From: Archaeoglobi archaeon
GTDB taxonomy: Archaea; Halobacteriota; Archaeoglobi; Archaeoglobales; Archaeoglobaceae
Length of the DNA: 61,848 nt
Assembly (NCBI GenBank): GCA_029259415.1
Contig: JAPDIW010000036.1
Span: 1 to 61,848 of the forward strand
Direction of reading: 5' to 3'
Positions 16,016-31,123 of this stretch are shown piece by piece. Under the pieces are notes generated by a model. It ran no database searches. It was given only the letters and a program-made list of their open reading frames with translations, and was not told the DNA's origin. A program made the position numbers and the translations under genes. The stretch's first letter is position 1; every line of letters starts with the position of its first letter.

Positions 16016-16055
16016 GATGTCCTCTAAAGCATTGCAAATGTCAAATTCTCCAACG

Positions 16056-16358: not shown

Positions 16359-16696
16359 GATTGTTTTCTCTGTTTTAGGCGTTCTATTAACTCGTTTAGT
16401 AATTGCTCAGCTTCCTCAGGGTCGAATTCCATGAGGGCCATATAGTGGTTTTCCATTTCCTTTTCAACTTCTTTTACTCCTTTATCTGTCACAGAATAAT
16501 AGGCAACTGGTGGTCGAGAATTCGGATCTATTTCTCTTGAGATGAATCCTTCTTGCTCTAAAACTTTTAAAACCCTGCTTAGTGTTCCTGAAGTTGCTGG
16601 AAAGTCTTCTAAAATTTGATTATATCTCGCTCGGTTCCCATTTTTCAGAATTATCCTGAGAGTTACAGCCCCATACTTCCTTATTAGTGGATCCAT
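16355..16696 (-). CDS. Winged-helix transcriptional regulator (HxlR/PadR/MarR-like)
   Basis: A 113-residue DNA-binding protein. The N-terminal helices (LIRKYGAVTLRIIL) lead into a winged helix: ARYNQILEDFPATSGTLSRVLKVLEQEGFI, with the wing DPNSRPPVAYYSVTDKG and a C-terminal dimerisation helix (EEAEQLLNELIERL). It faces the RHH gene at 16794 across a palindromic intergenic region and probably binds there. It heads the leftward operon of the element. Confidence 0.85.
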   Translation of the reverse strand: MDPLIRKYGAVTLRIILKNGNRARYNQILEDFPATSGTLSRVLKVLEQEGFISREIDPNSRPPVAYYSVTDKGVKEVEKEMENHYMALMEFDPEEAEQLLNELIERLKQRKQS

Positions 16697-16718
16697 GTTC
16701 CACCTCCATTAAGTTCTT

Positions 16719-16768
16719 ACAACATTGTGGCGAAACCTTTATATAACTTTATCGCAACATAATGTTGT
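16719..16768. promoter_or_regulatory. Divergent promoter with palindromic operator
   Basis: ACAACATT at 16719-16726 is repeated inverted as AATGTTGT at 16761-16768; GGCGA (16729-16733) and TCGC (16752-16755) extend the symmetry. Between the arms lies the TATA-like TTTATATAA. The arms flank the core promoter in the gap between the leftward winged-helix gene and the rightward RHH gene. This is the geometry expected for an operator bound by one of these two regulators. Confidence 0.65.
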
Positions 16769-16793
16769 TAAGAAAAAATGTTGGCGAGCATCT

Positions 16794-16961
16794 ATGAACA
16801 TAGTTCGAAAATTCGTGAGCCTTCCACCAGCATACATCGAGAAAATCCACGCAATAAAGCAGGAGTTGGGAGTTTCAAGTGATTCTGAGGTTATCAGAAG
16901 AGCGATTGACGCTTACGCTGAAGATTTAGGTTTAAAAATTAAAAACTCAGGAGGTGGATGA
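16794..16961 (+). CDS. Ribbon-helix-helix (CopG-like) protein
   Basis: A 55-residue protein: MNIVRKFVSLPPAYIEKI gives the strand and first helix, and ELGVSSDSEVIRRAIDAYAEDLG the second helix. ATG 16794 is preferred over an upstream in-frame ATG at 16725, which lies inside the operator. The stop overlaps the next gene. Likely a copy-control or autoregulatory protein of the element. Confidence 0.75.
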   Translation: MNIVRKFVSLPPAYIEKIHAIKQELGVSSDSEVIRRAIDAYAEDLGLKIKNSGGG

Positions 16962-17202
16962 GTTGCAGACCGCCACACCTCGTAAACTTTCCCCTAAAAG
17001 AAATAAGAGAGTGAATTTATATAAAAGTTACGATTCTAATAAGAGAAAGTTGGTCACATTCAACTCAAATGGGGCGATCTACTTTCCGAAACTCATTCGA
17101 GAAATCTTCAAAGGATATTATTTCACAATTGAAGTTTCCGAAGGCAAGATTGTCTTGGATCCAGTTAAGATAGGCGATTTTCCAGAGGGGGTGCAGGGAT
17201 GA
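16954..17202 (+). CDS. AbrB/SpoVT-like small protein
   Basis: An 82-residue basic protein. The segment KLVTFNSNGAIYFPKLIREI followed by YYFTIEVSEGKIVLDPVK looks like a swapped-hairpin AbrB domain. The N-terminal 30 residues are basic and perhaps disordered. The start is GTG 16954 or TTG 16963; GGAGGTG at 16950-16956 favours the latter. It overlaps the primase gene downstream, so it lies in the replication operon. Confidence 0.6.
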   Translation: MDELQTATPRKLSPKRNKRVNLYKSYDSNKRKLVTFNSNGAIYFPKLIREIFKGYYFTIEVSEGKIVLDPVKIGDFPEGVQG

Positions 17203-19201
17203 ACAGACTCGAGAGTCTTCTCCAGTTTCTGAACAAACCAGATACATGGATCGAGATAAGGCTCATTAGTAAAGGGAGATCTATTCCCAAATTCTACGAA
17301 GGAGTAAATGAGCTGATCGCCGATTATGACTTCCTAAAATCACAGAATGAAAATGGCTTTAACGTTTATTACGGCATACTTCCACGCAAGAGCAAACCTG
17401 ATAGTGGTGGAGGAAGTAAAGAGCATGTCATAGACAAAGCTGACCGGCTCTGGCTCGATGTTGACGTTTTCTCAGTCAAGAGGCCTGAAGAGTATGAAAA
17501 TCTCACAGATGAGGAGATCAAGGCGAGAGTTCTTGAGAAATACGAGGAAGCAAGAAGATCCTCGAGTCAAGAGATATCCACATAACAGTCTGTGTTTACT
17601 CAGGCAGAGGTTTTCAGCCTATAATCAGGCTCAACAAGGAGATTCCAAAGGAGGAAATTGAAGAGCTGAATAAGGTTCTGATCAAGTTCTTGAGAGATCA
17701 CGGTTTTAAGGTTGACAATGCCTGGGATTGTGCCAGAGTTCTTAGACTGCCAGGCTTCTATAATGTCAAGGACAACAGAAGGCTTCTGGCCGAGTTGATT
17801 GAGCTTAACGACAATGTCACAGATGTGGAGGTTATAAGAAGGCTCAAAGAAGAGCTGGAGGAGTCAAAGGAAGAGGAAGAGAGGCCTAAGATTGATGGCG
17901 AGGCCAAGTTTGTTAATGATCTCGGCATACACCTTGACACGATAAGGAAGGTTGACAGAAAACTCGATGAGCTTCTGGAAGTCATTGAACATCCGGACTA
18001 TGACTCACCTTCCGAGGCTGACATGGCCTGTGCCTCCAGACTGCATTACTGGCGATTTAGTGAGCCACAGATTGTAGAGATCCTTAGAAGCTACAGATAC
18101 AGGGAGAAGCTGGAGCGTGATGACTACATTGAGCTTACTCTCTCAAAAGTGGAAAGAAGTGGAGAGCAGTTCAATCCTGCCAAGAATCCCAAGCTATTCC
18201 TGAAGTTGTGTGACATCCAAAATCCCCACAGTGGGGGTAATGAGTTCCGAGTGTTCTATGATGATAAGCAAAAAATTATACCTTCAAAACCTCGGAACAC
18301 TCGGAACACACAGGACACTAAGGACACTCAGAACAACACTACAAAGTCATCACTTTTTGAACCCGACTGTGTTCAGAGGGCCAGAGGAATACCTGATCCA
18401 CAAGCTCTGAAAGTAATATTAGCGTGGCAAAAGAAGAGAAGAATTCCTGAAGACAAGAGAGCCGAATTCATTGATTCATTTATAGCGGCACATAACCTGA
18501 ACCTCTCCATAAGCGAGTATTCAGAGTTGTGGAAGGTTCCAGAATTCACCTGTAATTATGTTCAAGAGCTCGGCCTATGTGTTGGAGAAGGTTGCAGGAT
18601 GAAGCTGCCTCCAGCAGAGAGGCTTATCCTCGACACAGAGAGTGTGGTAATTTTCCACTCGAGTGGAGAGATGGATGTTAAGGTTGCAGGAAAGAGAAAG
18701 ATCATTCCTTTAAAGAAGTTTTTCAGGAAGCAGAAAAGTGAGGTGATAATAAACTCAGCTATCTTTGATGAAGTCTTTCTTGAATGCTATCTTTTGCCTC
18801 CTAATCCACCTTTCTCGGAAGAAGATGCTTTTAGAGTTTACCAAGCATGGCTTGAAATCGCCGACCACGTGAAAACACCAGTAGATGTGGAGAGTGGGCT
18901 TGAATCCACAATAATCGAGATTTTGACAACAAAGAGGGATTACTATTCCTTAGACCTGCTGAAAGAAAAGAAAGTACCACCAAAACGTGGGTTCTTCCTG
19001 GAGGATGGTGTGATCTACGTTGAATCAGAGCTTTTCAAGGAGCTTCTTGAGGAGGCCGGCATAAAGGACCGTAAAGAGAAGGTGGCAAAGGCCATCCAGA
19101 GACTTCTTGCAGGACCTTCAAAGAGAATGAGAGTTGGAAATGAGTTGCGTTACTTCTGGCGTTTCAACCTGCAAGCCATCCAGGCTATTTTGAGGAGATG
19201 A
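17199..19201 (+). pseudogene. Primase-polymerase with PriL-like cysteine domain, frameshifted
   Basis: Two frames make one protein of about 667 residues. The first (17199-17585) ends soon after the archaeo-eukaryotic primase motif RLWLDVDVF. Shifting frame at about 17560 continues as ILESRDIHITVCVYSGRGFQ, then DNAWDCARVLRLPGFYNVKD, the second half of the primase active site. The C-terminal half has FEPDCVQRARG, then TCNYVQELGLCVGEGCRM: four cysteines spaced as in the iron-sulfur C-terminal domain of PriL. A PrimS fold fused to a PriL-like domain is the plan of PolpTN2 of plasmid pTN2. The family copies DNA de novo. As read here the gene is broken by one base. The DNA after the stop also reads DDWEPEVIEDIESSEIAELI in another frame, hinting at a second shift near 19195. 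Confidence 0.75.
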
Positions 19202-19276
19202 CTGGGAGCCAGAAGTGATTGAGGACATTGAGAGCTCGGAGATTGCCGAGCTGATACCTGCAGGAGGTGATGAAGG

Positions 19277-20848
19277 ATGGCAGATTTAGTTAAACTCTAC
19301 GGTCCACCAGGCACCGGAAAGACCACGTGGCTGATCAACAAACTGAAAGAGACCGTTGATGGAGAGAACGTGAAAATCCAGGATGTCATGTTCATCAGCT
19401 TCTCAAACTCTGCTATAAATGAGGCCTGTGAGAGAATCAGAGTTGATAAAGGAGGTGTGGTCACACCATACTTTAGGATACTCCACGGCCTTTGCTTGAG
19501 TTGGCTCACAAAGCAGAGCCCTGGCCTTCGGTATATCGTTGAGACAATGCAGGCTTATGACTTCATTGAAGGTCTTCAGGCCAAGTTCTGTCAGGACCTC
19601 GGCATCCCATACATCAAGGGTGATGATGGCTCGGAAGCTCTCGGCAACCGGATTTTCACGCTGTGGACAAGGACCATAGGTGAACACTACCCAAAGAAGA
19701 GAGATGCTCAGGCCTGCCTCGATTTGCTGTATAAGGTGAATAACGAGGCTGGCCACGTTATTGAGCTGTGGTTAAAGACCAAGGAGAAAACAGGAATCAT
19801 AGACTTCAATGACATGCTTATCGAGGCCTATGAGGATGATATCTTCATTGATGCCAAGGTTGGCTTTATCGATGAGGTTCAGGACTTCAACTCCCTTGAG
19901 TTTGAGATCGCTAAGAAGTTGATAGAGGGCCTTGATGTTGCCTACCTTGCAGGTGATGATGATCAGGCCATTTATGGCTGGAAGGGAGCACGGCCTGAGT
20001 TCTTCCTTAACTTCAAGGGTGAGGAACACGTTCTCCCCAAGTCGTGGAGAGTCCCATCTGAGATCTGGAAGCTTGCAGGAGGCATAATCAGCCAGGTCAA
20101 AACCCGGAAGGAAAAAACCATTATACCGGCCTTCAATGGTGGAGGCTGGAATATCCTTAAGAGAATGTCCTTTGATGAGATTGTCAGAACTGCTGCCATT
20201 CTGTCAAGAAGGCATCCTGACAAAACGGTTTTCCTGCTTTTCAGGACAAATAAGATGGTTTACTACGCTGAGAGGATTCTCATCTCCCTGAGAGTTCCGT
20301 TCAAGAAGCTCAAGGGTGAGTCTCCTTGGGATAAGGAAATCCTCACAGCTTGGAATGTAGTTGCAAAGCTGCGTGGAAAACAACCGCTCAACATACAGGA
20401 AAAGTTCTGGCTGATTGAAAACCTTCGAGAGGAGATCCTTCCACAACACCTCAAGGAGGGTGCTCTTAAATCTCTGGCTGAGGGAGGGCTTCCGATCCAG
20501 TTCTTTGAAGTTTTGCAGTCAAAGGGTGATCCGATCAACCTCATCAACTTCAGAAGCAAGAGGACTGCAAAGATCGTTCAGGATGCCTATCACCCGGTTG
20601 TGGAGGAAAAGATCAACCTCTACGTTGACACAATCCATGCATCCAAGGGAAAGGAAGCTGATATTGTTGTTCTTGCCGATGCAATCACCCAGAATATCGC
20701 ATCAGAGCTGAGAAACGGAGGAAGGGAGAGTGAATTAAGGCTGTTTTATGTAGGGGTCACGAGAGCCAAGAATTTCGTTATTGTGGCCCCTCTTTACAAG
20801 TTCAGGCCCTTCCTGACTCAGGAGGTGGTAGCCTGTGCTCATGTCTGA
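19277..20848 (+). CDS. Superfamily 1 (UvrD/Rep-like) DNA helicase
   Basis: A 523-residue helicase with all major motifs: Walker A GPPGTGKTTWLINKL (residues ~10-24), motif Ia MFISFSNSAINEACERI, Walker B VGFIDEVQDFNSLE, motif III LAGDDDQAIYGWKGA, motif IV region VLPKSWRVPSEIW, motif V TIHASKGKEADIVVL and motif VI RLFYVGVTRAKN. It is shorter than UvrD, with reduced 1B/2B insertions. It follows the primase-polymerase gene with its start inside a likely C-terminal extension of that frame. The pair helicase plus PolpTN2-like primase defines pTN2-type plasmids. Unlike the primase, this gene is intact. Confidence 0.9.
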   Translation: MADLVKLYGPPGTGKTTWLINKLKETVDGENVKIQDVMFISFSNSAINEACERIRVDKGGVVTPYFRILHGLCLSWLTKQSPGLRYIVETMQAYDFIEGLQAKFCQDLGIPYIKGDDGSEALGNRIFTLWTRTIGEHYPKKRDAQACLDLLYKVNNEAGHVIELWLKTKEKTGIIDFNDMLIEAYEDDIFIDAKVGFIDEVQDFNSLEFEIAKKLIEGLDVAYLAGDDDQAIYGWKGARPEFFLNFKGEEHVLPKSWRVPSEIWKLAGGIISQVKTRKEKTIIPAFNGGGWNILKRMSFDEIVRTAAILSRRHPDKTVFLLFRTNKMVYYAERILISLRVPFKKLKGESPWDKEILTAWNVVAKLRGKQPLNIQEKFWLIENLREEILPQHLKEGALKSLAEGGLPIQFFEVLQSKGDPINLINFRSKRTAKIVQDAYHPVVEEKINLYVDTIHASKGKEADIVVLADAITQNIASELRNGGRESELRLFYVGVTRAKNFVIVAPLYKFRPFLTQEVVACAHV

Positions 20849-20858
20849 CCTTTCACGG

Positions 20859-20875
20859 TCCTCCTTCACGGAGGA
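20859..20875 (+). terminator. Stem-loop after the helicase gene
   Basis: TCCTCC, loop TTCAC, GGAGGA, followed by AAAATAAAAA. It is a perfect 6-bp stem 10 bases after the helicase stop and just before the ribosome binding site of the next gene. It could be a terminator-like or RNA-processing element. Confidence 0.35.
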
Positions 20876-20897
20876 AAAATAAAAAGGAGGTGGCAGA

Positions 20898-21071
20898 ATG
20901 TTGGGAGAAGTGGAAGAAGTTTTGAAGGAGTTTTGTGAGTGGTCGGGAAGAGATAGAGAGGAGTACATCCAGCAAGCAGTTTTCGAGAGGCTGAAAGGAG
21001 ATTTGGAGGAGATAGCGAGCTACAACATTCCAAGGGCTAAAGAAATGCTTGGAAAACTTTTGGAGGCTTGA
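20898..21071 (+). CDS. Small helical protein, element 1
   Basis: A 57-residue acidic helical protein (VEEVLKEFCEWSGRDREEYI, AKEMLGKLLEA). AAGGAGGTGG at 20884-20893 is an excellent ribosome binding site for ATG 20898. Its end overlaps the TTG that could start the next gene. Family unknown. Confidence 0.7.
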   Translation: MLGEVEEVLKEFCEWSGRDREEYIQQAVFERLKGDLEEIASYNIPRAKEMLGKLLEA

Positions 21072-21073
21072 AA

Positions 21074-21430
21074 ATGCTGTTGCCCATTGATGAGAGCCTC
21101 AAGGAATGGATAGAGATCGCAGTTGAGTATAAAGTGAAAATAAAGAGATTCAAACAAGGACTCTACCAGATTAGCGATTTAGATCGCATACCGGTTTATC
21201 CGGAGATCCTTGGACGTGCAACAATCGAGGAGGTCTGCAACCTCATCAAGCCATCCGTTCTGTGGATGAATAAGAGGGGATTCGACAAAGAGGATATTGC
21301 TGAGAAGGTCGGAGAGGTTTACGGAATCAACCCGAAACATGCTAAGGTGTTGGTTGAGCGAATTCTTGGAGAACTCGAAAGTAAGGAGGTTGAGGAGGAG
21401 ATTGATATGATGGAGTTTGTGGAGGGGTGA
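21074..21430 (+). CDS. Uncharacterised protein, element 1
   Basis: A protein of about 118 residues: LLPIDESLKEWIEIAVEYKV at the start, then helical NLIKPSVLWMNKRGFDKEDI and AKVLVERILGELESKEVEEE. The middle looks like a small helix-turn-helix (KEDIAEKVGEVYGINPKHAK), but this is tentative. The start is ATG 21074 or TTG 21068. It lies in the helicase operon. Confidence 0.6.
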   Translation: MLLPIDESLKEWIEIAVEYKVKIKRFKQGLYQISDLDRIPVYPEILGRATIEEVCNLIKPSVLWMNKRGFDKEDIAEKVGEVYGINPKHAKVLVERILGELESKEVEEEIDMMEFVEG

Positions 21431-21540
21431 TGGAGATGGGTTATTTGCTTTTAAAATGTGATGTTGGAAAGCCAAATAACAGGATCGAACTGGAAAAGCT
21501 CTTAAGAGGTCAGAGATGGGAGGTTAAGAATCTCGATCTT
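21427..21540 (+). pseudogene. Element gene cut at the right end of element 1
   Basis: The frame begins MMEMGYLLLKCDVGKPNNRI and stays plausible through LEKLLRGQRWEV, then runs into sequence that belongs to a different gene on the other strand. The ATGA overlap with the upstream gene shows it was part of the operon. Only about 35 residues of the original protein remain. Confidence 0.55.
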
Positions 21541-21885
21541 AAATCCTTCAATAGTTACACCATCCGCCGTTATGGTGATAACGTTGCTTCTCCCACCTGC
21601 ATCGAGGATCGGCCTTCCTTTACCGGTATTAACTCCGCATACAGTGACCTGCTTTTTTATCACTACATTTTCGTAGTAAGTTCCGCTATAAACTTCGATA
21701 ACGTCTCCAGGATTTGCATTATCAACTGCAGTTTGGACACTTGCGTAGTCGCATCCAGAAGGGCATACAGTTACTGTCGCAGCTTGTAGTGGAACTGCCA
21801 GCGCAACAAAGATTGTCAAAAACATGTGTATCTGTAAAACCAGTCCGTTTTTAAGTACTCCAGCTGAGCGCATTATACCCTCCAT
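21502..21885 (-). pseudogene. Truncated NosD-like beta-helix surface protein
   Basis: A signal peptide (LQIHMFLTIFVALAVPLQAA) is followed by VCPSGCDYASVQTAVDNANPGDVIEVYSGTYYENV, the classic start of archaeal parallel beta-helix (NosD/PbH1) proteins. VTVCGVN and GVTIEGFKI come next, then the frame collapses at about 21535. A normal member is hundreds of residues longer. The 5' end and promoter side look intact, so the break is where element 1 joins. Confidence 0.8.
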
Positions 21886-22156: not shown

Positions 22157-22186
22157 ATAAAAAGATTTAGCTTTAACATATGTTAA
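22157..22186. other. Left attachment site of element 2 (attL)
   Basis: The 13-base core ATAAAAAGATTTA (22157-22169) recurs exactly at 30183-30195. Just inside the element, CTTTAACATATGTTAA (22171-22186) is the inverted partner of TTAACTTAAGTTAAAG (30167-30182) with 14 of 16 matches. Together they form a typical recombinase arm-core-arm site when the ends are joined. Confidence 0.75.
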
Positions 22187-22220
22187 CAATAACTACTTAT
22201 ACCTTGAAGAAAAATTTTAT

Positions 22221-23417
22221 ATGATGAAAACGTTTGAAGAAGTAGATAAATGGCTGACGGAAAACTTCTCTAATAAGAGCACAAAGAATGTGTATTCCAA
22301 CAGTCTAAGGAAATTCTTTGAGTTCGTTGGAATGACTGACAAAGAGTACCTGCAGCAGACAGATAGAGACAGGTTTGCAAGAGACCTTAAGGCATTTATC
22401 GAGGCCAATGCTTACAGAGCACCTAAAAGCCTTAACGTTATGGTAGCAGCAGTAAAGAGCTTCTTTGCTGACCACGGAATCAGGATAGATGAGAGTGAGT
22501 GGAAAAAGATAAAAAGAAGACTCTTACCTCCACCCAGAGAATTAACTGTTGATACTGCAGGGAAACACGACGAATGGAGGAGAATACTGTCCCACATGGA
22601 CATTAAAGGACGCTCTCTATTCCTCTTCTTACTGAGCACAGGATGTAGAATTGGAGAAACCCTACAACTTAAAGTGAGCGACTTGGACTTGAACGCAGAC
22701 CCACCAAGAGCATACATTAGACCAACATACACCAAAGGTGGTTACGGTGGTAGGGTTGTATTTATGAGCTACGAAGCAAGAGACGCGATAAAGGAATGGT
22801 TGAGAGTTAAAGAGAAGACCCTAAAGAGGGTAAGCCCACAACTCTCCTCCCAAGTGTGGGATGACGATAAGGTATGGCCGATGGACCCAACTAATGCTTG
22901 GAGAATCCTGAATGATGCACTAAAAAAGACAGGACTTGATGATAGAGACCCCACCACTGGAAGATACAGAATCCACATCCACAGCACAAGGAAGTTCTTT
23001 AGAAGCAATATTGGATTAGATGATGCCTTGGTGCATGCTTTAATGGGACATGAAGGATACTTGGACAGAAGCTACCTAAGAACTGACCCAGATCGTGCAG
23101 CAGAAGAGTATAAGGCAAACATGCATAGAGTTACAATCTTTGAGAGACAAACACTTGACAAAGTTGAGTTGATAAAGGCATTTGCCCGAAGTTTAGGTAT
23201 AGAGAATATCGACATCAAGATTGCAAGAATACTCGAAGAGCATCCAGAGATGGACGAAGAGCAAGTTATAGGGAAGTTGATAAGACAGGAATTAGCAATA
23301 AAGCAAACAAACAACAAGCAAAGGAAGCTTATAACGGAGGAGGAGCTACCACACTACCTAAACGATGGGTGGGAGATAGAGCACGTAATTAACAACAAGA
23401 TCGTGGTGGCAAAATGA
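22221..23417 (+). CDS. int: Tyrosine-family integrase
   Basis: A 398-residue site-specific recombinase. The N-terminal SAM-like DNA-binding domain (residues ~1-95) includes NKSTKNVYSNSLRKFFEFVG. The catalytic domain has Arg I in LLSTGCRIGETLQLKVSDLD, the Lys strand in TYTKGGYGGRVVF, the H-x-x-R box HIHSTRKFF, the second His in ALMGHEGYLDRSYLR and the nucleophile Tyr in the same stretch (YLDRSYLRTD). A C-terminal ~90-residue extension is unusual. It lies 34 bases inside attL, so it serves this element. It is not split, unlike SSV-type integrases. Confidence 0.93.
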   Translation: MMKTFEEVDKWLTENFSNKSTKNVYSNSLRKFFEFVGMTDKEYLQQTDRDRFARDLKAFIEANAYRAPKSLNVMVAAVKSFFADHGIRIDESEWKKIKRRLLPPPRELTVDTAGKHDEWRRILSHMDIKGRSLFLFLLSTGCRIGETLQLKVSDLDLNADPPRAYIRPTYTKGGYGGRVVFMSYEARDAIKEWLRVKEKTLKRVSPQLSSQVWDDDKVWPMDPTNAWRILNDALKKTGLDDRDPTTGRYRIHIHSTRKFFRSNIGLDDALVHALMGHEGYLDRSYLRTDPDRAAEEYKANMHRVTIFERQTLDKVELIKAFARSLGIENIDIKIARILEEHPEMDEEQVIGKLIRQELAIKQTNNKQRKLITEEELPHYLNDGWEIEHVINNKIVVAK

Positions 23418-23800
23418 ACCTCTTTAATTTTTTTGACTACCTAAAGCAGGCTCTACATTTACCTGAAGAAACCGAGCTAAAGTGGATACCCACAGATAAC
23501 TGCAAATATCGAGGAATGGTCAGCAAAGATGGCAAGACCATCTTTATTTTTGACCCAGACGAAGAGGAGGCAAAGGAAACACTAATCCACGAAGCCATCG
23601 AGCTTTTAATTGTCAGGCTGGCACAGTGTATCGTTAATCCTGAGGTTGCAAGAAGTGAGAAGGAGCTATACAACCTTAAAGAGGCTGCGGTGGAAGTGAT
23701 ACGGCAACTGATTACAGAAGAGGCTGTTATTAAGCAGGGGAGCATTAACGAGCTAATCAGGTTGTTGAAACAAGCAGGAAGAGAGGATTTGATAGAGTAA
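23414..23800 (+). CDS. Uncharacterised protein with HExxE-like motif
   Basis: A 128-residue protein overlapping the integrase by 4 bases (ATGA). KDGKTIFIFDPDEEEAKETL is followed by IHEAIELLIVRLAQ. The HEAIE helix after a beta-rich segment resembles the metal-binding helix of small zincin-like proteins, but a third ligand is not evident. Function unknown; coupling with int suggests a role in mobility or its control. Confidence 0.6.
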   Translation: MNLFNFFDYLKQALHLPEETELKWIPTDNCKYRGMVSKDGKTIFIFDPDEEEAKETLIHEAIELLIVRLAQCIVNPEVARSEKELYNLKEAAVEVIRQLITEEAVIKQGSINELIRLLKQAGREDLIE

Positions 23801-24064
23801 CTACATTTTCAGGTTCTTGATGAATTTTAAACCTTTTTCTGTAATTTTAACTCTGTACGATGCCACTCCTGATGCACTTTCCTCTTTGTCCACTTTTATA
23901 ATCTCAACAAAATTTAGAAGTTCTAAAAAATTACAGTTCTTTTTTACAGTCTCATAGTTCGTTTTGATAATTTTCGAAAGACGGTAGTAGGTGTAAACCT
24001 TCCCATCTGATAGTACTTTCAGGAGTTCGATTTTCTTTTTATCGCTCGTTAATAGTTCAGTCAT
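23801..24064 (-). CDS. Winged-helix DNA-binding protein
   Basis: An 87-residue protein: KIELLKVLSDGKVYTYYRLSKIIKTNYETVKKNC is a clear helix-turn-helix, and SYRVKITEKGLKFI the wing and final helix. It points left, converging on the integrase operon with its stop directly abutting the previous gene. Likely an element regulator. Confidence 0.75.
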   Translation of the reverse strand: MTELLTSDKKKIELLKVLSDGKVYTYYRLSKIIKTNYETVKKNCNFLELLNFVEIIKVDKEESASGVASYRVKITEKGLKFIKNLKM

Positions 24065-24126
24065 ATTGTAGTGGATACAACAATATCAAAAGGCTTATAA
24101 TGAGTAATTCAGAAATTTGTAGTAAA

Positions 24127-24144
24127 CACCACAAAATGGTGGTG
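24127..24144 (+). promoter_or_regulatory. Hairpin covering the lipoprotein ribosome binding site
   Basis: CACCAC, loop AAAATG, GTGGTG. The right arm is the GGTGGTG Shine-Dalgarno of the ATG at 24150, so the stem would mask it. Similar GGTGG hairpins occur at 25180-25195 and 25561-25576 in the same element. Confidence 0.4.
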
Positions 24145-24149
24145 AAAAT

Positions 24150-25136
24150 ATGAAAAGGGGTATACTCGTGCTGATTGCCACAGCCATTCTTTTAAGTGGA
24201 TGTGCCCAAACACCTGCGATAGAAAAACCAACTGCAAGGGTTGACGACATAAATGTAGAAGGTGTTGATTACAAAGTGGGAAAGGGTCTCACTCTTTACC
24301 TAACGGTAAGGGTTACAGTGGATAACCCAAACCCTGTCGGAGCACACTTGGATAAAATTGTGTATGATATATATTTGGTCAGAGGTGAGGAAAAATACTT
24401 AGGTCACGGAGAAAAGTCAAATTTTGATATCAGAAAGCAAGGATTAACAGCTATTGAGATTCCAACTACCATCGAGGTTGACTGGAGCACCGCACAGGAA
24501 ATAATATCGTCTCTCCGTGAGTATGGACATATTGTCTTAAAAGTTAGTGGCTCAGCATACATCGACTTTAAGGTTACAACATTCGAAATACCATTTGAAG
24601 AAGGTAAGGTCGTAGTGTTTACTATTCCAGAAAGCCAAGTGGTAGATAGAACGCCTGTAGTAGAAAGAACACCTATAGTGGAGAGAACCCCCTTAATAGA
24701 GCGTACACCAATAATAGAACGCACAACTACGATTGTACCCACCACACCGACAACATATTACACACCATCCGAAGAGGAGCTAACTGAAAGACTTCAGATA
24801 ATCATCAATCCCAAACCCGCCAGAGTAGGAGAAGTTGTGACCATAAAAGTCGTCAAAGGAGACGGTACACCAGTTTCAGGGGCTTATGTTGGTTATATCG
24901 ATGCGGTCAGAGCTGCAGCACTCGGTTATGCAGTAACCCAATTAACTGGTGATATTCGACTAGCCATAAAAGTTGCAATGCAGTATGCTGAGCGATTAGA
25001 GCCCACAAACACTCAAGGTGTAACAACTGCAACATTCGACAAAGCGAGTGAGTATGTCATTGTAGCTTGGAAAGGTGTAGGTACTGGTGGAGCTGAATCG
25101 CTGCTTGTAAAACCCAAATTGTCTATTAGACGCTAA
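24150..25136 (+). CDS. Lipoprotein with LEA14/WHy-like domain and VERTP repeats
   Basis: A 328-residue exported lipoprotein. The signal ends in ILLSGCAQ (lipobox Cys 18). A LEA14/WHy-type beta domain follows (VRVTVDNPNPVGAHLDKIVY, YGHIVLKVSGSAYIDFKV). A linker of five degenerate ERTP units comes next (VDRTPVVERTPIVERTPLIE, residues ~170-195) with a Thr-rich stretch. The C-terminal domain resembles a surface Ig-like fold (INPKPARVGEVVTIKVVKGD, PVSGAYVGYIDAV). A surface protein carried by a mobile element could act in attachment, exclusion or virion structure; none is proven. Confidence 0.75.
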   Translation: MKRGILVLIATAILLSGCAQTPAIEKPTARVDDINVEGVDYKVGKGLTLYLTVRVTVDNPNPVGAHLDKIVYDIYLVRGEEKYLGHGEKSNFDIRKQGLTAIEIPTTIEVDWSTAQEIISSLREYGHIVLKVSGSAYIDFKVTTFEIPFEEGKVVVFTIPESQVVDRTPVVERTPIVERTPLIERTPIIERTTTIVPTTPTTYYTPSEEELTERLQIIINPKPARVGEVVTIKVVKGDGTPVSGAYVGYIDAVRAAALGYAVTQLTGDIRLAIKVAMQYAERLEPTNTQGVTTATFDKASEYVIVAWKGVGTGGAESLLVKPKLSIRR

Positions 25137-25179
25137 ATTAACACTCCTATTCTAAATTTTTCAGTGTAACCCCTCCCCC

Positions 25180-25195
25180 ACCACCACATGGTGGT
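25180..25195 (+). promoter_or_regulatory. Short inverted repeat before the zinc-finger gene
   Basis: ACCAC, CACATG, GTGGT, lying in a C-rich stretch between the lipoprotein and the zinc-finger gene. Another member of the element's GGTGG hairpin set. Confidence 0.3.
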
Positions 25196-25252
25196 TAGTG
25201 TAAACCCCCAGAAAAGGTTTATTCCCAATCTGAAATACACCTATGTGTTGAA

Positions 25253-25426
25253 ATGTGCCTATACGAAAAGTATTTAGCCATACATAAACACATAAGTTAT
25301 ATGAGACAGTGCTGGTATTGTGGTAAATGGTTTAAGAATAAACAGGCACTTAGAGGACACTTAGGCCACTGTAAGGTGAGGATGCAAGAAGGCAAGTTCA
25401 GGTTTGGAAAGTACGCTAAAAAATGA
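25253..25426 (+). CDS. Single C2H2 zinc-finger protein (57 aa)
   Basis: A 57-residue basic protein. CWYCGKWFKNKQALRGHLGH is a textbook C2H2 finger (C-x2-C, hydrophobic core F and L, H-x3-H/C with HLGHC), followed by a Lys/Arg-rich tail. Such tiny zinc fingers are common in archaeal viruses and plasmids as DNA-binding regulators. It is too short for most gene finders. Confidence 0.8.
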   Translation: MCLYEKYLAIHKHISYMRQCWYCGKWFKNKQALRGHLGHCKVRMQEGKFRFGKYAKK

Positions 25427-25560
25427 ATAAAAATCGAAAGAAACTATCAGAAAAATTGTCGAAAACTTGTGGTTATAACTTGTGTGGTGGAGGGTTAATA
25501 AAACTTAGAAAAGTTAAAGTTAGGAGAAGCTTAATAGAAGGATATTTTTGAACTCACAAC

Positions 25561-25576
25561 CCACCTCTCTAGGTGG
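25561..25576 (+). promoter_or_regulatory. Hairpin at the start of the 25582 gene
   Basis: CCACCT, loop CTCT, AGGTGG. It is a perfect 6-bp stem whose right arm supplies the AGGTGG ribosome binding site for ATG 25582. Confidence 0.4.
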
Positions 25577-25581
25577 TGGAG

Positions 25582-26160
25582 ATGTATAGGAGATCCGTTC
25601 ATCGTGAAGTGGTAGATGAAGTTGTAAGAACTCTTAGAAATCGAGGGTATGTTGTAAAGACGGAAGCTTGGGCAAGCACCTCCTTGGGCTACAGGAGTAA
25701 CTCTCTTTGGCGTGAATACGATCTTGAAGAATGGTATAGAAGTTTTAGCTCCAATGTTGCAAATATGCTTCTCGGGAGCAACAGCCCTTGGATAAGTTTA
25801 CACAATCCCGAGTTTCAAACAAGACTGGATGTAGTGGGACTGTACTACGCTGATCTCGAACGAGTTCCTTTACATACCTTCTTCGTTAGAAAAGATCCGA
25901 AAGAGGTGGCGTTGAGAACTATACTAGTAGAAATTGAACACCGACATTCTCTCGAGGAAGCGGTGGAAAGAATCAGAGGCTACCCTGCTGGAAAGAAGAT
26001 TATAGTTTGGACGCGCGGTAGTAGTGGGGGAGTGCTTGACGACATCCCTATATTAATAGCGAGAAACGAGGGATTTGGATGGTATATTACCGGACTTCTT
26101 GAAATTTTAGATGAACACGCAAGGGAAGTGAGTTCTCTAAGAGAGAATAAGGAGGTCTGA
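25582..26160 (+). CDS. Possible PD-(D/E)XK-fold protein of element 2
   Basis: A protein of about 192 residues starting MYRRSVHREVVDEVVRTLRN. An Asp in RLDVVGLYYADLE and then TILVEIEHRHSLEEAVERIR, KKIIVWTRG follow the order of restriction-endonuclease-like folds (Asp, then E-x-E/K strand, then helix and strand). The usual E-x-K is E-x-E here, so catalysis is uncertain. ATG 25582 is chosen because AGGTGG precedes it; two in-frame GTGs lie just upstream. Confidence 0.5.
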   Translation: MYRRSVHREVVDEVVRTLRNRGYVVKTEAWASTSLGYRSNSLWREYDLEEWYRSFSSNVANMLLGSNSPWISLHNPEFQTRLDVVGLYYADLERVPLHTFFVRKDPKEVALRTILVEIEHRHSLEEAVERIRGYPAGKKIIVWTRGSSGGVLDDIPILIARNEGFGWYITGLLEILDEHAREVSSLRENKEV

Positions 26161-26297
26161 AAATGTCTTTAACGTGAGTTAAAAACGATGGATGGAGAGG
26201 AGACTTCGCTTAATTTTTAGGTTGTAAACTGTTTATGTTTTTCGACGTGGGTTGAATAAGTTGATTTAACTCCTATATAGGAGATTAAAATTCGCTA

Positions 26298-26589
26298 AAC
26301 TTTTTTAGTTAAAAAAGTTCGATTCCTTAGTATCCTGATTCGGAACAATAACTACTGGAGAAGGAATAATACTTTCTTTTCTTACGTTAAAAAAGTAAGT
26401 TAAAAAAGTGTAAAAGGAATATTTTATACAAATGTGTGTATGTTTTGTTACTTCTTTAACACTGTAAAGTTAGTAAAGTTAAAAAAGAAAGTAAGTGTAA
26501 AACCATGCAACATGCTTTATTTGCCAAACCAAGTCACTTTCGTCTTTTTTTCGTGCAGTTAAAAAAGTGGTTAAAAAAGTTAAAAAAGT
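26298..26589. repeat. Iteron-like repeats GTTAAAAAAGT, candidate replication origin
   Basis: Direct copies of GTTAAAAAAGT lie at 26308, 26386, 26399, 26558, 26570 and 26579, with a near copy at 26478. An inverted copy (26298) makes a 21-base palindrome with the first. Gaps of 78, 79 and 80 bases separate the groups. The block lies directly beyond the 3' end of the replication-type gene and fills almost the whole 26161-26588 gap. Confidence 0.7.
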
Positions 26590-27806
26590 CACTCGACAGC
26601 AACGTATATCAGTCTACGCCTACCTGCTGTTGGTTCAACTTCCTTCTTTATTTTACCACTAGGCAACAGGTAGTGCTCAATTATGTCGTCTAACTGATTG
26701 GCTGGTATTTTTGCCTTTTGGAGGAGTTCACTCCGTCCTATTTTGCCTTCCTTCCTGATGATGTCGTAAACAAACTCTGCCTGCACCTCAACAGACCTTA
26801 TTGGTTCCTCTCTGGTAAGCTTTTCTTTCTTCCACTCCAACACAAGTCTCTGGAAATTGTCCCAGTATTTTTCGATCTTCTTTTCAACCCACTCAACATG
26901 ATGGTCGAGAATCGTAGGTTCTGGTGGTTTATTGTTTGGATTCTGCAACATGTAATCAATACACTTCTCGTCAGCAATCGAGCGTAACATAGCCAGCTTT
27001 ATTGCCTTCTCGACGAAGTCCTGTCTGTAAGATGCTTCCAAGTTTTTACCTCTCTCCACTAACTTCACAGCATCCTCGGTGTATTTATTCATCAATTCTG
27101 GTAGTTTCTTAGACACGGAGACAACAAGTTCAATCTTAGTTAGTAGGTTCAGCTTTTCTAACAGGTCTGATGGTAGATCTTCTGATATATTAGGTTCTAA
27201 GTCATCATCGCTCCATTTTTTATGTTCTCCATTCCACAAGGTATAGAGGAACCTGTTGCCAAGACCTTGCATAAAGTATTCAGGTTTCATAACCTTGTAT
27301 AGGTAATCTGTGCTTGTCCCAATCAGGTTCACGTAAAATCCCTGTGCCACCTCAAGCTTTTCTTTTCGTGTGTATCTTCGCTGGACGAAACCATCGTAAA
27401 GCTGGCTCAGGAATTCCATCATATCAGGAAGGTAATCTTTGCCTTTAAGGAAGACACTAAATTCGTCTCTGATAATAACTCCACGTTTCTGTGTCTTGCT
27501 CAGACATTCTACTAATCCCTCGAAAGAGAAACTCGTAGGTAAAAACAGGTCTATGTTGTGGTTTTCCTTAAAGTAATTAAGGACTGGGATGTAAAATGCT
27601 TTTAAAGGTAAAGTCTTGAACGCAATCCTGCTAGCTCCTATATACAGGAACCATAGGTTAGGTCGGATTTTTCCCTGTCTGGTGTATAGGTGTGCATTAT
27701 AGCTAAACGTAGAGACCATACTTATAGCTATATCCTCTGCCCAGTCTTTGCTTACTGTTAGTCCACGGTCAAGTATGTAGTTCCTGATCTCTTCGATCAG
27801 ATTCAT
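26589..27806 (-). CDS. Replication ATPase-like protein with degenerate P-loop
   Basis: A protein of about 405 residues. FLYIGASRIAFKTLPLKAF sits where a P-loop should be, but reads G-A-S-R-I-A-F-K-T. RGVIIRDEFSVFLKG has the look of a Walker B, and LIGTSTDYLYKVM of a sensor strand. The layout resembles DUF3987-type primase/helicase C-terminal proteins. The C-terminal ~90 residues form a winged helix (YDIIRKEGKIGRSELLQKAK). ATG 27806 follows GGAAGGTGG. With the iterons at its 3' end it is the best candidate for the element's replication initiator. Confidence 0.55.
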   Translation of the reverse strand: MNLIEEIRNYILDRGLTVSKDWAEDIAISMVSTFSYNAHLYTRQGKIRPNLWFLYIGASRIAFKTLPLKAFYIPVLNYFKENHNIDLFLPTSFSFEGLVECLSKTQKRGVIIRDEFSVFLKGKDYLPDMMEFLSQLYDGFVQRRYTRKEKLEVAQGFYVNLIGTSTDYLYKVMKPEYFMQGLGNRFLYTLWNGEHKKWSDDDLEPNISEDLPSDLLEKLNLLTKIELVVSVSKKLPELMNKYTEDAVKLVERGKNLEASYRQDFVEKAIKLAMLRSIADEKCIDYMLQNPNNKPPEPTILDHHVEWVEKKIEKYWDNFQRLVLEWKKEKLTREEPIRSVEVQAEFVYDIIRKEGKIGRSELLQKAKIPANQLDDIIEHYLLPSGKIKKEVEPTAGRRRLIYVAVE

Positions 27807-27978
27807 TGTTACCACCTTCCTTTTTCCTTATCAGTAGTCCACCGTCTCTCTCCTCGAATTCTACTTCGTCTCCCGGTTTCCAGTCCTTCAGTGCTACCCA
27901 ACCATACGGCAGGGTAACTGCTACGGATCCACCAATTCGAAACAACTTCCGCTTCATATTTAAACTTAAGTTAAACAT
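27769..27978 (-). CDS. AbrB-family DNA-binding protein
   Basis: A 69-residue protein: MKRKLFRIGGSVAVTLPYGW, then WKPGDEVEFEERDGGLLIRKK. This is a standard swapped-hairpin AbrB domain. It overlaps the start of the replication gene by 38 bases, so the two are co-transcribed; it may autoregulate the pair. The start is ATG 27978 or 27957. Confidence 0.8.
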   Translation of the reverse strand: MFNLSLNMKRKLFRIGGSVAVTLPYGWVALKDWKPGDEVEFEERDGGLLIRKKEGGNNESDRRDQELHT

Positions 27979-28059
27979 GCTACATAAACTTTTCCTCTGG
28001 TAATAAAGTTAATCTCTACAGAGAAAACTATTATATACTATTAGGTTTTTATTTTTTAT

Positions 28060-28290
28060 ATGAGCGATGTAGAGGAACTGGAGGATGTGCTGAAGAGAGG
28101 AGCTCGGTCGCAAATAGCTCTGTTTCTCATACTCAGTGGTGGCGAGCCCAGAACCAAAGAAGAGATAGTTGAAGCAACGGGACTCAGTGAGTTTACAGTC
28201 AATCGAGAGATGTCGTATCTGCACGTAAACCATCCTGACTGGTTTGAGCGAGTTGCTCCTAAGACATATCGGTTTAAGAGGGTGATGTGA
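28060..28290 (+). CDS. Helix-turn-helix protein, first gene of the rightward operon
   Basis: A 76-residue protein: RSQIALFLILSGGEPRTKEEIVEATGLSEFTVNREMSYL is a winged-helix core. It is divergent from the AbrB/replication pair and heads a run of eight closely packed genes to 30141. A TATA-like TTATATACTATTAG lies just upstream. Confidence 0.75.
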   Translation: MSDVEELEDVLKRGARSQIALFLILSGGEPRTKEEIVEATGLSEFTVNREMSYLHVNHPDWFERVAPKTYRFKRVM

Positions 28291-28401
28291 ATGTTTGTTG
28301 TGGAAATTGTGAGGGATCTGGGTAGAAGGTTAGATGCTGTCAGGGAAGGGATTAGAGAACTTAAAGAGTTTAACAAAAAGGTTTGTGAGGAGGTGATGTA
28401 G
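28291..28401 (+). CDS. 36-residue protein, element 2
   Basis: It starts at the base after the previous stop. A single amphipathic helix: MFVVEIVRDLGRRLDAVREG and IRELKEFNKKVCEEVM. It ends 1 base before the next ATG. Tight packing is the main support. Confidence 0.5.
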   Translation: MFVVEIVRDLGRRLDAVREGIRELKEFNKKVCEEVM

Positions 28402-28402
28402 T

Positions 28403-28771
28403 ATGCCTTTAGGTGTGCCTGGAAGAAGGTTGTTGGTGGGAGCTGGAGCGTTGGGTATTGGTTATGTCCTTAGTGGTATGGTGGGAAGCAGAGTAACAGT
28501 AAGCGGTAGGAGATTGCAGGGTTATCCTACAATTGGAAGCATAAGGGAGAGACTACGTGATAGATTTGGCAGAGAACAACCTGAAGAGTCACCTGTGGAG
28601 GCTAAGAAAAGAGAGCTGAGGAGGAGGATAGAGGCAATAATGGATCCAAACAAGTTGCCAAGACCAACTGAGGCAACAAAGAACGAGCTGTTGGAAATGC
28701 TTGAGGAAGGGAGAATACAGGAGGTCGAGCAGATAGTTAGGTCTTACGAAAGGAGACAAGCTTCGAGGTGA
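28403..28771 (+). CDS. Small protein with one hydrophobic segment, element 2
   Basis: A 122-residue protein with a Gly-rich hydrophobic N-terminus (RLLVGAGALGIGYVLSGMVG). A basic, helical C-terminal two thirds follows (EAKKRELRRRIEAIMDPNKL, ELLEMLEEGRIQEVEQIV). GGAGGTG lies just upstream. The plan of one membrane helix plus a charged domain fits a virion or envelope-associated protein, but no family is recognised. Confidence 0.6.
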   Translation: MPLGVPGRRLLVGAGALGIGYVLSGMVGSRVTVSGRRLQGYPTIGSIRERLRDRFGREQPEESPVEAKKRELRRRIEAIMDPNKLPRPTEATKNELLEMLEEGRIQEVEQIVRSYERRQASR

Positions 28772-28776
28772 GAGTA

Positions 28777-28929
28777 ATGCCTGTCAGAATTAACAGCACT
28801 GGCAGAAAACCTCTAATTCAGTTCTACGAACGATGTGGACGAGTACCAATAGCAGAGTTCGACAACTACGAGGATGCTTTCAAGTGGCTGTGCAAGTATT
28901 TAGACATAAGAATAGAAGAAGTCTTCTAA
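28777..28929 (+). CDS. 50-residue protein, element 2
   Basis: MPVRINSTGRKPLIQFYERC, then VPIAEFDNYEDAFKWLCKYL. It is a compact alpha/beta protein by eye, 5 bases after the previous gene and 5 before the next. Unknown family. Confidence 0.55.
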   Translation: MPVRINSTGRKPLIQFYERCGRVPIAEFDNYEDAFKWLCKYLDIRIEEVF

Positions 28930-28934
28930 CGAGC

Positions 28935-29165
28935 ATGATTCACGTAACTGGGGTTCAGCTAATACCAACAGAAGATAGAAAGCTTATCGGGAGGTTTGAG
29001 GTTTACACAAGCGAGTTCAAAGTTAGGGCTGGCTTCAAAGTTACAGATAAGGGCATCGAAATCATTTTTCCGAAAGGAGTGACACCTCGTCCTCCTGCAG
29101 ACAGAGAGATTGTGAAGCAGTTAAGGGACGATATAGAGAGGAAACTTAGGTGGGGCGATTTCTGA
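28935..29165 (+). CDS. SpoVG-like small protein
   Basis: A 76-residue protein: MIHVTGVQLIPTEDRKLIGR, FEVYTSEFKVRAGFKVTDKG, IEIIFPKGVTPRPPADREIV. The order of strands, the FP motif and the terminal helix with Arg-x-x-I resemble the SpoVG nucleic-acid-binding fold. ATG 28935 is chosen over an upstream ATG because the preceding gene ends at 28929. Its stop overlaps the next start (TGATG). Confidence 0.5.
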   Translation: MIHVTGVQLIPTEDRKLIGRFEVYTSEFKVRAGFKVTDKGIEIIFPKGVTPRPPADREIVKQLRDDIERKLRWGDF

Positions 29166-29668
29166 TGTCAGAGAGAATAATTGAGGAGCTGAGGAAGCTA
29201 AACAGAACACTCGAGCGATTGTTAGCTTACTCTACAGTCAGCCCTGATTACTGGGAAGTGAAGCTTATTGACGTTGATACACCAATCAGTATAGCTCCAA
29301 GAGGCAGTAAAGTTGTAGTGGACGAACAAGAGGTTGGAAGAGTATTTGCTATTGTTGCCTCAGTCAACAACAAAGATGCAGTGGTTGAGGTGCAGATTGA
29401 TGACACCATTGCAAGAAACAGCATTCAGGGATTGTATAATGCTGGGATGACAAGCTTTAACCCCTCTACCTTCTGGCTGGCAAAGTATGATGAAGCAAAT
29501 GACAGTTATGTGGCTGCATACACACCTGTCCCTTGGAGGGACTACCACCGACGAGTAAAGGTTACGGTTTATGCACCTTCTAACTCGGCAGTTAGCTTCA
29601 CTTACCTGATTTACCGCTACAGGTTCAGAGAACAACTTTTAAGGGGCAAACATGGTTCAGGTTGGTAA
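29165..29668 (+). CDS. Beta-rich protein, candidate virion/structural component
   Basis: A 167-residue protein. A short N-terminal helix (ERIIEELRKLNRTLERLLAY) is followed by an all-beta domain: IDVDTPISIAPRGSKVVVDE, RVFAIVASVNNKDAVVEVQI, YHRRVKVTVYAPSNSAVSFT. A helical leader plus beta sandwich is common in viral capsid-decoration and tail proteins. No family can be named. It is the largest gene of the rightward operon. Confidence 0.5.
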   Translation: MSERIIEELRKLNRTLERLLAYSTVSPDYWEVKLIDVDTPISIAPRGSKVVVDEQEVGRVFAIVASVNNKDAVVEVQIDDTIARNSIQGLYNAGMTSFNPSTFWLAKYDEANDSYVAAYTPVPWRDYHRRVKVTVYAPSNSAVSFTYLIYRYRFREQLLRGKHGSGW

Positions 29669-29831
29669 AAGGGCAAAAAAGACTGCAGATTTCCTCGACA
29701 GACATGGGATTAAGGTAATTTCGCAACTTGACTGTATTAACTGTTCTGAACGGAGCGATTTCGAGGAGTGTAAGTATTTCAAGTATGTCTATGGTCTGCC
29801 TACCTGTATGCGGAAAGTTAAGGTAAAGTAG
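29652..29831 (+). CDS. 59-residue cysteine-containing protein
   Basis: It overlaps the previous gene by 17 bases. CINCSERSDFEECKYFKYVY and LPTCMRK give four cysteines that could bind zinc or iron. Basic N-terminus. Unknown function. Confidence 0.6.
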   Translation: MVQVGKRAKKTADFLDRHGIKVISQLDCINCSERSDFEECKYFKYVYGLPTCMRKVKVK

Positions 29832-29832
29832 T

Positions 29833-30141
29833 ATGTCGGAGAAGTTACCTTCTACAATGGTTAAACGGGACAGCAAGATTAACGACCTTGTTACGTGGGT
29901 TATTGCTCGTCTTGAAGAGTTTGGTGCATGTGAACTTGAAGCTGTGGGGACAGCAGTCTTAACTTTATGTCACGTTATTGCACGGTTGCAGAAATGGGAA
30001 ATACCGTTTGATTACACCTGCAAGATAGGGTATGTCTGGAAGAACGAACACAGTATTAAACCTTGCCTCCGTGTCAGGCTGTGGGCGAAAGAGAGATTCT
30101 GGGATACAGTTAAAGATAGCACAATTGAGAGAGAAAAATAA
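29833..30141 (+). CDS. Uncharacterised protein, last gene of element 2
   Basis: A 102-residue protein: KINDLVTWVIARLEEFGACE, LEAVGTAVLTLCHVIARLQK, then FDYTCKIGYVWKN and VRLWAKERFWDTV. It looks like two helices and a small beta sheet. It starts 1 base after the previous stop. It may be an accessory DNA-binding or dimeric protein of the ssh10/Alba size class, but this is not shown. Confidence 0.55.
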   Translation: MSEKLPSTMVKRDSKINDLVTWVIARLEEFGACELEAVGTAVLTLCHVIARLQKWEIPFDYTCKIGYVWKNEHSIKPCLRVRLWAKERFWDTVKDSTIEREK

Positions 30142-30166
30142 ATTTTTTTGTATCCAAATGTTATTT

Positions 30167-30195
30167 TTAACTTAAGTTAAAGATAAAAAGATTTA
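30167..30195. other. Right attachment site of element 2 (attR)
   Basis: The arm TTAACTTAAGTTAAAG (30167-30182) abuts the core ATAAAAAGATTTA (30183-30195). Core-to-core distance is 8,026 bases. The site lies 34 bases before the ftr start codon, so integration replaced everything upstream of the immediate ftr promoter. Confidence 0.75.
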
Positions 30196-30229: not shown

Positions 30230-31123
30230 ATGAAGGTGAATGGTGTTGAAGTTGAGGAAACTTTTGCTGAGGCCTTTGACATAAAAATTGCAAGGGTTTT
30301 GATAACGGGCTACGACTATTACTGGGCCTGGGTAGCTGCAAACGAGGCCACGGGGTTCGGTACGTCGGTTATTATGTGCCCCGCCGAAGCTGGAATCGAG
30401 ATTAAGGCAAAACCGTCTGAAACCCCCGACGGGAGACCGGGTTACTACATTCAAATCTGCCACATGAGCAAGAAGGGGCTTGAAGAGCAGCTTCTGGCCA
30501 GACTTGGCCAGTGTGTTCTTACCGCACCCACTACTGCAGTCTTCAACGGTCTGCCAGATGCCGAGGAGAAGTTTGACACGGGATTCAAGCTCAAGTTCTT
30601 CGCCGACGGATACGAGAAGGAATTAGAGGTTGGAGGAAGGAAGTGCTGGGCAGTCCCCATGATGGAGGGAGACTTTATAATCGAGAACGATATCGGATAT
30701 ACCAACGGCATTGCGGGAGGAAACTTCTTCATAATGGCTGAAACTCAGCCATCTGCTCTTGCAGCTGCAAAGGCTGCAGTAGATGCGATAAGCGACGTTG
30801 AGGGTGCGATTACACCATTCCCAGGTGGAATTGTTGCTTCTGGTTCAAAGGTTGGGGCAAACAAGTACAAGTTCCTGAAGGCCTCAACAAACGAAAAGTT
30901 CGCTCCGAGCATAAGGGATCAGGTTGAAGGAACGCAGATTCCAGAAGGCGTGAAGGCAGTCTACGAGATCGTCATCAATGGATTGAATGCTGATGCAATC
31001 AAGGAAGCCACGAAGGTTGGAATACTGGCAGCGACGAAGATTCCGGGAGTTGTAAAGATTACAGCCGGAAACTACGGTGGAAAGCTCGGAAAGCACATCA
31101 TAAACCTGAACGAACTCTTTTAA
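30230..31123 (+). CDS. ftr: Formylmethanofuran:tetrahydromethanopterin formyltransferase
   Basis: A 297-residue cytoplasmic enzyme that moves the formyl group between methanofuran and tetrahydromethanopterin, in the C1 (reverse methanogenesis) pathway that Archaeoglobus uses to oxidise acetyl groups. The full-length family pattern is visible: FAEAFDIKIARVLITGYDYY, TGFGTSVIMCPAEAGIE, RPGYYIQICHMSKKGLEEQL and a C-terminal repeat of the fold (TPFPGGIVASGSKVG). AGGTGAT precedes the ATG. It lies immediately downstream of element 2, so its promoter context may have changed. Confidence 0.96.
   Translation: MKVNGVEVEETFAEAFDIKIARVLITGYDYYWAWVAANEATGFGTSVIMCPAEAGIEIKAKPSETPDGRPGYYIQICHMSKKGLEEQLLARLGQCVLTAPTTAVFNGLPDAEEKFDTGFKLKFFADGYEKELEVGGRKCWAVPMMEGDFIIENDIGYTNGIAGGNFFIMAETQPSALAAAKAAVDAISDVEGAITPFPGGIVASGSKVGANKYKFLKASTNEKFAPSIRDQVEGTQIPEGVKAVYEIVINGLNADAIKEATKVGILAATKIPGVVKITAGNYGGKLGKHIINLNELF

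Follow-up and report, generated by a model that had tools for sequence, protein, structure and literature searches.

Attachment (att) sites other than tRNA genes are a minority among archaea, even if they are documented, and the 2021 review of archaeal tyrosine recombinases lists few of them and asks about dyad symmetry (PMC8371274). In pNOB8-type, SNJ2-type and PYG1 elements the tyrosine integrase stays intact after integration and adjoins the left junction, attL, the att core of SNJ2 being 13 bp long (PMC8371274). Phage psiM100 of Methanothermobacter has an AT-rich attB, or host site, that lies between genes and is not a tRNA, and no effect on how the neighbouring genes are transcribed is reported (as cited in PMC8371274). 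The sites of XerA/dif have an 11-6-11 layout, with TAA...TTA at the spacer edges (PMC8371274). In Archaeoglobus veneficus, the integrated proviruses AvPV1 (PMC10919331) and ArcVen-P3 (PMC4158269), of 17.9 and 9.5 kb, are bounded by direct repeats and use tRNA-Gly and tRNA-Ser with att sites of 27 and 55 nt, respectively. Here we describe an element of about 8.03 kb that lies upstream of the metabolic gene ftr in a draft genome of a heat-loving archaeon (GCA_029259415.1; 104 contigs, 1.94 Mb, 99% complete), whose ftr and overall gene content indicate the genus Archaeoglobus. The window analysed is one whole contig of 61,848 nt (JAPDIW010000036.1).

We think it very probable that this is a plasmid-like integrative element of an Archaeoglobus species, whose integrase joins a symmetric element site, attP, to an attB formed by the core promoter of ftr, AAAAATAAAAAGATTTAAATC. 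A reading of the sequence alone (the sequence-only reading) had placed an integrative element at exactly these borders on the basis of an exact 13-base direct repeat, and this placement is now well supported. The repeat, ATAAAAAGATTTA, is found twice in the window against 0.01 copies expected from shuffling, and the entire 1,941,972-bp assembly holds exactly these two copies, both at the element borders. The first ATG of the integrase gene lies 51 nt beyond the left core, and the right core ends 34 nt ahead of the ftr ATG. On the element side, each core is accompanied by a perfect 14-bp palindrome (TTAACATATGTTAA on the left, TTAACTTAAGTTAA on the right), the two being mutually inverted as previously noted. 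The symmetry is longer than that reading had it, with inverted arms that extend to 27 nt each, are identical at 23 of 27 positions and flank a 6-nt spacer, AAAGAT. Joining of the ends would thus give a 60-nt attP of the order GTTATTTTTAACTTAAGTTAAAGATAA-AAAGAT-TTAGCTTTAACATATGTTAACAATAAC, centred on TAA-AAAGAT-TTA. The halves next to the spacer, GTTAAAGATAA and TTAGCTTTAAC, match in inverted orientation at 10 of 11 positions, which gives an 11-6-11 layout. That such a site goes beyond random AT-rich matching is borne out by the arm score, which was reached 9 times when 200,000 pairs of AT-rich 40-mers were drawn at random from the window. The full-length arm pattern, itself derived from these two arms, had no match in 100 shuffles. 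The single-strand fold of the 60-nt attP, used solely as a measure of symmetry, lies 5.9 standard deviations below shuffled sequences (z = -5.9). A circularised element would carry the junction GTTATTTTTAACTTAAGTTAAAGATAAAAAGATTTAGCTTTAACATATGTTAACAATAAC, and the empty site would read ...AAAAATAAAAAGATTTAAATCGC.

The host side of the right junction was compared with seven further genomes of the genus (G001-G007), whose ftr genes are 95-99% identical to that of the window. The stretch AAAAATAAAAAGATTTAAATC is uninterrupted upstream of ftr in all seven, at a nearly constant distance from the start codon, and the promoter stretch is identical across these congeners while the genes further upstream vary. 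For six of these genomes, homology to the window starts at 30178-30179, at the 13-base core; for G007, a gapped alignment extends it by 20 nt, to 30158. The uninterrupted region predicted for relatives is therefore found on the ftr side, and no element genes occur upstream of ftr in the seven genomes. From the position and composition of AAAAATAAAAAGATTTAAATC, the right core would be the core promoter of ftr, comprising a transcription factor B recognition element (BRE) and a TATA box. Since the 13-bp core is common to attP and attB, the promoter core is rebuilt at the ftr end, and ftr should therefore keep a working promoter, in the same manner as tRNA-targeting elements restore the tRNA; continued expression of ftr is thus expected. 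The target is indeed not a tRNA gene, as had been stated, although calling this unusual was an overstatement given the documented minority. Among G001-G007 the genes upstream of ftr stand in scrambled order while the promoter is invariant, and the region is possibly a rearrangement hot spot.

The integrase has the complete catalytic set R-K-H-R-H-Y (R143, K172, H254, R257, H277 and Y285). It matches XerA-type models, which give the best scores, and PDB 4a8e, and reaches 71 bits with the XerA equivalog NF040815, whose cut-off is 220, so it falls far below the XerA equivalog level. It also differs from the suicidal type (SSV/pTN3/pT26-2), the reading frame being unsplit, the att site outside the gene and the domain PF00589 rather than Phage_integr_3. 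The collections searched comprised 55 family genomes, 394 genomes sampled from the phylum, 2.9 million viral contigs, records of phages and plasmids, and papers under open licences. Single-sequence search of the viral and genome collections yielded no close relatives of the integrase, and an alignment-based search reached 23 integrase loci in other archaea. By these sequence comparisons the enzyme belongs to a broad group of tyrosine recombinases spread over archaea. The 128-aa protein encoded next, in a 4-nt overlap, is by its position a possible partner of the integrase.

Two other Archaeoglobaceae genomes (G009 and G020; JdFR-27 and B5_G16) encode integrases of 38-39% identity. In G009 this enzyme (38%) stands at the start of a 10.2-kb sister element (G009:C22:20033-30252; L053:12034 to L054:2353) with a 12-bp repeat core, TAAAGATAATTA, and genes for an AbrB-like protein, replication proteins of 678 and 342 aa (primase-like) and a 68-aa membrane protein. 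When the 25-nt arm beside the G020 integrase was compared with 32 kb of G009, the best two matches (22/25 and 20/25) coincided exactly with the two ends of the element and were oppositely oriented; outside the arms no match scored above 17. This is independent evidence that the inverted arms are recognised sites. The cores of the ftr element and of G009 have TAA-N5/6-TTA in common. In G009 the distance from the core to the start of an ATPase-like gene downstream is about 31 nt. This gene appears broken in that genome, and its promoter-region sequence, AATTAATAAT, is conserved in G011 and G012; from this spacing and conservation, the G009 attB is probably also a core promoter. Among the other integrase loci scanned, no att pair rose above chance except that of G009, which was recognised by its arms rather than by score.

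The ftr element shares with the pNOB8-type, SNJ2-type and PYG1 elements an integrase left intact beside attL, and with SNJ2 the length of the core. Unlike them, it uses the predicted core promoter of a protein gene rather than a tRNA, its attP is a long inverted dyad and its gene content differs. The layout of the core resembles that of XerA/dif, but here the element has its own recombinase with a C-terminal extension, and the target is a promoter instead of a dimer-resolution site. As in psiM100, attB is AT-rich and intergenic, whereas psiM100 is a head-tail phage, described with neither symmetric arms nor a promoter target (PMC8371274). Neither a VP4-like spike nor a split SSV-like integrase, as in AvPV1 and ArcVen-P3, was found in the ftr element; by name, the hosts of these proviruses are of the same genus. 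The element would thus be one that uses an ordinary archaeal tyrosine recombinase and is undescribed in the collections searched. The proposal of an undescribed mobile system holds to that extent; the element looks like a member or variant of the small integrative elements of archaea rather than a new kind of system, given the broad integrase group and the several genes with relatives in host chromosomes. What is novel are the promoter-rebuilding target and the long attP dyad, on an otherwise known kind of element, and both of these, the dyad at its full length, as well as the arm layout common to a distant sister, go beyond the sequence-only reading.

Several points weigh against this interpretation. 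A single copy of the element is known, from one window of one draft assembly. Excision and a circular form are predictions from sequence. The left flank, moreover, is not the ancestral region upstream of ftr but rearranged mobile-element debris. The stretch CTTTAAAAATTTTCCAG..., found upstream of the promoter in most congeners, is missing from the window, and the 109-aa gene located ahead of ftr in five congeners sits here on another contig, C1. No left-flank empty site was found in the searched genomes, where this flank matches scattered fragments only; with the flank rearranged, the left junction depends on the repeat, the arm and the position of the integrase.

The same flank bears on the possibility that the element was once mobile and is now fixed, an old insertion beside decaying elements, which we think somewhat unlikely. 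Its left neighbour (15126-21500) is a degenerate element behind tRNA-Leu(CAG), the sole Rfam match in the window (at 15126), with an 82-aa AbrB-like gene, broken primase-like reading frames, a UvrD-family helicase (PHROG 1967) and no integrase; together with the scrambled gene order near ftr, this remnant suggests age. However, the integrase and the other main reading frames are open, the att arms and cores at either end are intact, and the host genome yielded no decayed homologous copy elsewhere. In further members of the family (L008, L009, L012, L014-L016), integrase matches also lie beside this tRNA-Leu sequence, which may therefore be a hot spot for integration. A fragment at 20860-21066 is 92% identical to a stretch on another contig of the same genome (G000:C7:14727-14933) and further pieces match G004, which suggests several related remnants. 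At 21502-21885, a short reverse-strand reading frame resembles the beginning of a surface protein of the NosD/pectate-lyase type and seems to be cut off at 21502.

We regard as quite unlikely that the element is a small provirus, with genes at 28.4-30.1 kb for virion proteins that have diverged beyond recognition. This block does consist of small co-directional open reading frames (ORFs) for which no relatives were found; one product has a hydrophobic stretch (28403), and another, of 167 aa, is beta-rich. In addition, tRNA-targeted proviruses are known in Archaeoglobus, as described above. Predicted by AlphaFold without alignment, the low-confidence model of the 167-aa protein (mean predicted local distance difference test score, pLDDT, 54) matches a protein of Haloarcula hispanica pleomorphic virus 4 with E 2.8e-3 and probability 1.0, missing the threshold of E <= 0.001; that of the 195-aa protein (pLDDT 38) was unusable. 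Yet none of the ORFs scanned matched a capsid, spike, packaging or phage structural family, and at 8 kb the element has under half the length of AvPV1. With no spike-sized gene and no family match to a VP4-like spike/fusion protein, it does not qualify as a pleolipovirus provirus. The 2.9 million viral contigs contained no real relatives of the helicase or of the 167-, 195- and 122-aa proteins; one match to the 195-aa protein (L122) was rejected as a chance match in what looks like a bacterial phage. Plasmid and phage records returned general recombinases and DUF3987-type 'DNA primases' only. No ORF scanned matched a relaxase, type IV secretion or VirB4-like family, so the element does not class as conjugative or mobilisable either. 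Of the clustered regularly interspaced short palindromic repeat (CRISPR) spacers sought against the element, four short matches were checked, none within repeat arrays, and nothing resembled a defence family beyond a marginal Cas11a match of the 122-aa protein.

That cores and arms coincide by chance in AT-rich promoters, the 8 kb having come by homologous recombination or rearrangement, is highly improbable. In favour of this view are the rearranged left flank, the frequency of AT-rich palindromes and the core-plus-arm totals of about 14 to 19 that the best chance pairs reach in other integrase loci. Against it, an identical scan gives 29.4 for the window, its 13-mer is unique to the two borders, the integrase adjoins the core, congener homology is lost sharply at the core and the sister element has the same inverted-arm layout.

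Table 1. Features of the ftr element and its target (window coordinates).
Feature	Coordinates	Strand	Evidence or remark
Predicted attL core, ATAAAAAGATTTA (A + TAA-AAAGAT-TTA)	22157..22169	+	two genomic copies in all
Integrase-side attP arm, TTAGCTTTAACATATGTTAACAATAAC; includes 14-bp palindrome 22173-22186	22167..22193	+	inverted partner 30160-30186; read outward from AAAGAT
Tyrosine recombinase (integrase), 398 aa, intact	22221..23417	+	Pfam PF00589 6.5e-15
128-aa protein	23414..23800	+	no family match
87-aa winged helix-turn-helix (wHTH) regulator, cargo	23801..24064	-	relatives 62-84% identical in other Archaeoglobaceae genomes
328-aa lipoprotein, LEA_2/WHy domain, cargo	24150..25136	+	Pfam PF03168 1.2e-8; relatives in G002, G030
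57-aa C2H2 zinc-finger protein	25253..25426	+	weak matches
195-aa protein	25573..26160	+	relative 68% identical in G040
Third palindrome, TTTAACNNNNGTTAAA, beside putative origin	26168..26183	.	motif scan
Putative origin, six exact GTTAAAAAAGT 11-mers on one strand, AT-rich intergenic	26308..26589	+	6 found vs 0.12 expected
408-aa DUF3987-type helicase, putative replication protein	26589..27815	-	Pfam PF13148 4.3e-6, just under gathering score
AbrB/MazE-type DNA-binding protein, putative switch protein	27769..27978	-	Pfam PF04014 8e-10; start perhaps 27957
Fourth, degenerate palindrome, TTTAAACTTAAGTTAAACAT, over 5' end of AbrB-like gene	27959..27978	.	motif scan
76-aa wHTH protein	28060..28290	+	weak match, HVO_A0261 N-terminal domain
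122-aa protein, hydrophobic N-terminal stretch	28403..28771	+	no family assigned
53-aa protein	28768..28929	+	no family assigned
75-aa protein	28938..29165	+	no family assigned
167-aa protein, N-terminal helix and predicted beta-rich region	29165..29668	+	relatives not found
59-aa Cys-containing protein	29652..29831	+	no family assigned
102-aa protein	29833..30141	+	no family assigned
Integrase-distal attP arm, TTATCTTTAACTTAAGTTAAAAATAAC; includes palindrome 30167-30180	30160..30186	-	23/27 identity to partner; read outward from AAAGAT
Predicted attR core and conserved ftr core promoter, ATAAAAAGATTTA then AATCGC	30183..30195	+	uninterrupted in 7/7 congeners
ftr, formylmethanofuran-tetrahydromethanopterin formyltransferase, host target gene	30230..31123	+	Pfam PF01913/PF02741

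The remaining genes (Table 1) suggest how the integrative element might be maintained. The GTTAAAAAAGT repeats of the putative origin directly adjoin the gene of the DUF3987-type helicase, whose relatives are the C-terminal portions of larger Archaeoglobaceae proteins (905 and 826 aa), and the free form would probably replicate from this region by means of that helicase. A decayed relative of the replication module, in the form of a frame-broken helicase gene with pieces 36-52% identical, lies in G020 (L106:498-1831, contig C40). The palindrome motif TTTAACNNNNGTTAA occurs at five places in the genome, three of them inside the 8-kb element (binomial P = 7e-7), which has a fourth, degenerate copy at 27960; the left-arm palindrome ends 34 nt ahead of the integrase gene. 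A small DNA-binding protein encoded by the element, most likely the AbrB-like one (whose matches to TIGR01439 and TIGR02609 are below cut-off), probably binds the palindromes in both arms, beside the origin and over its own gene. One dimeric protein on all four palindromes would link integrase expression, replication and its own synthesis; alternatively, the integrase itself may bind the two in the arms. Regarding the cargo, the wHTH regulator and the LEA_2 lipoprotein have relatives 56-84% identical in other Archaeoglobaceae. In G030 (L152, contig C560) both genes are divergent neighbours beside ferredoxin/heterodisulfide-reductase-like genes; thus, they may be transferred or inherited together.

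With its long and clear dyad, a target found empty on one side in seven relatives and arms confirmed by a sister, the ftr element is a case in point for the review's question on symmetry. Its compact 60-nt attP and defined attB are suited to in vitro tests at high temperature, and it might serve as an integration tool for Archaeoglobus. A broader proposal, which we put forward tentatively and consider doubtful, is that archaeal core promoters serve as attB for this integrase group. The BRE/TATA region would supply the TAA-N6-TTA crossover core, the core of the element would rebuild the promoter and the attP arm would set an operator encoded by the element immediately ahead of the host promoter, so that the element could control a central metabolic gene. 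Two cases fit, the ftr promoter and the site ahead of the ATPase-like gene in G009. Were core promoters targeted regularly, integrated elements would be able to rewire metabolic genes of the host and yet leave them unbroken.

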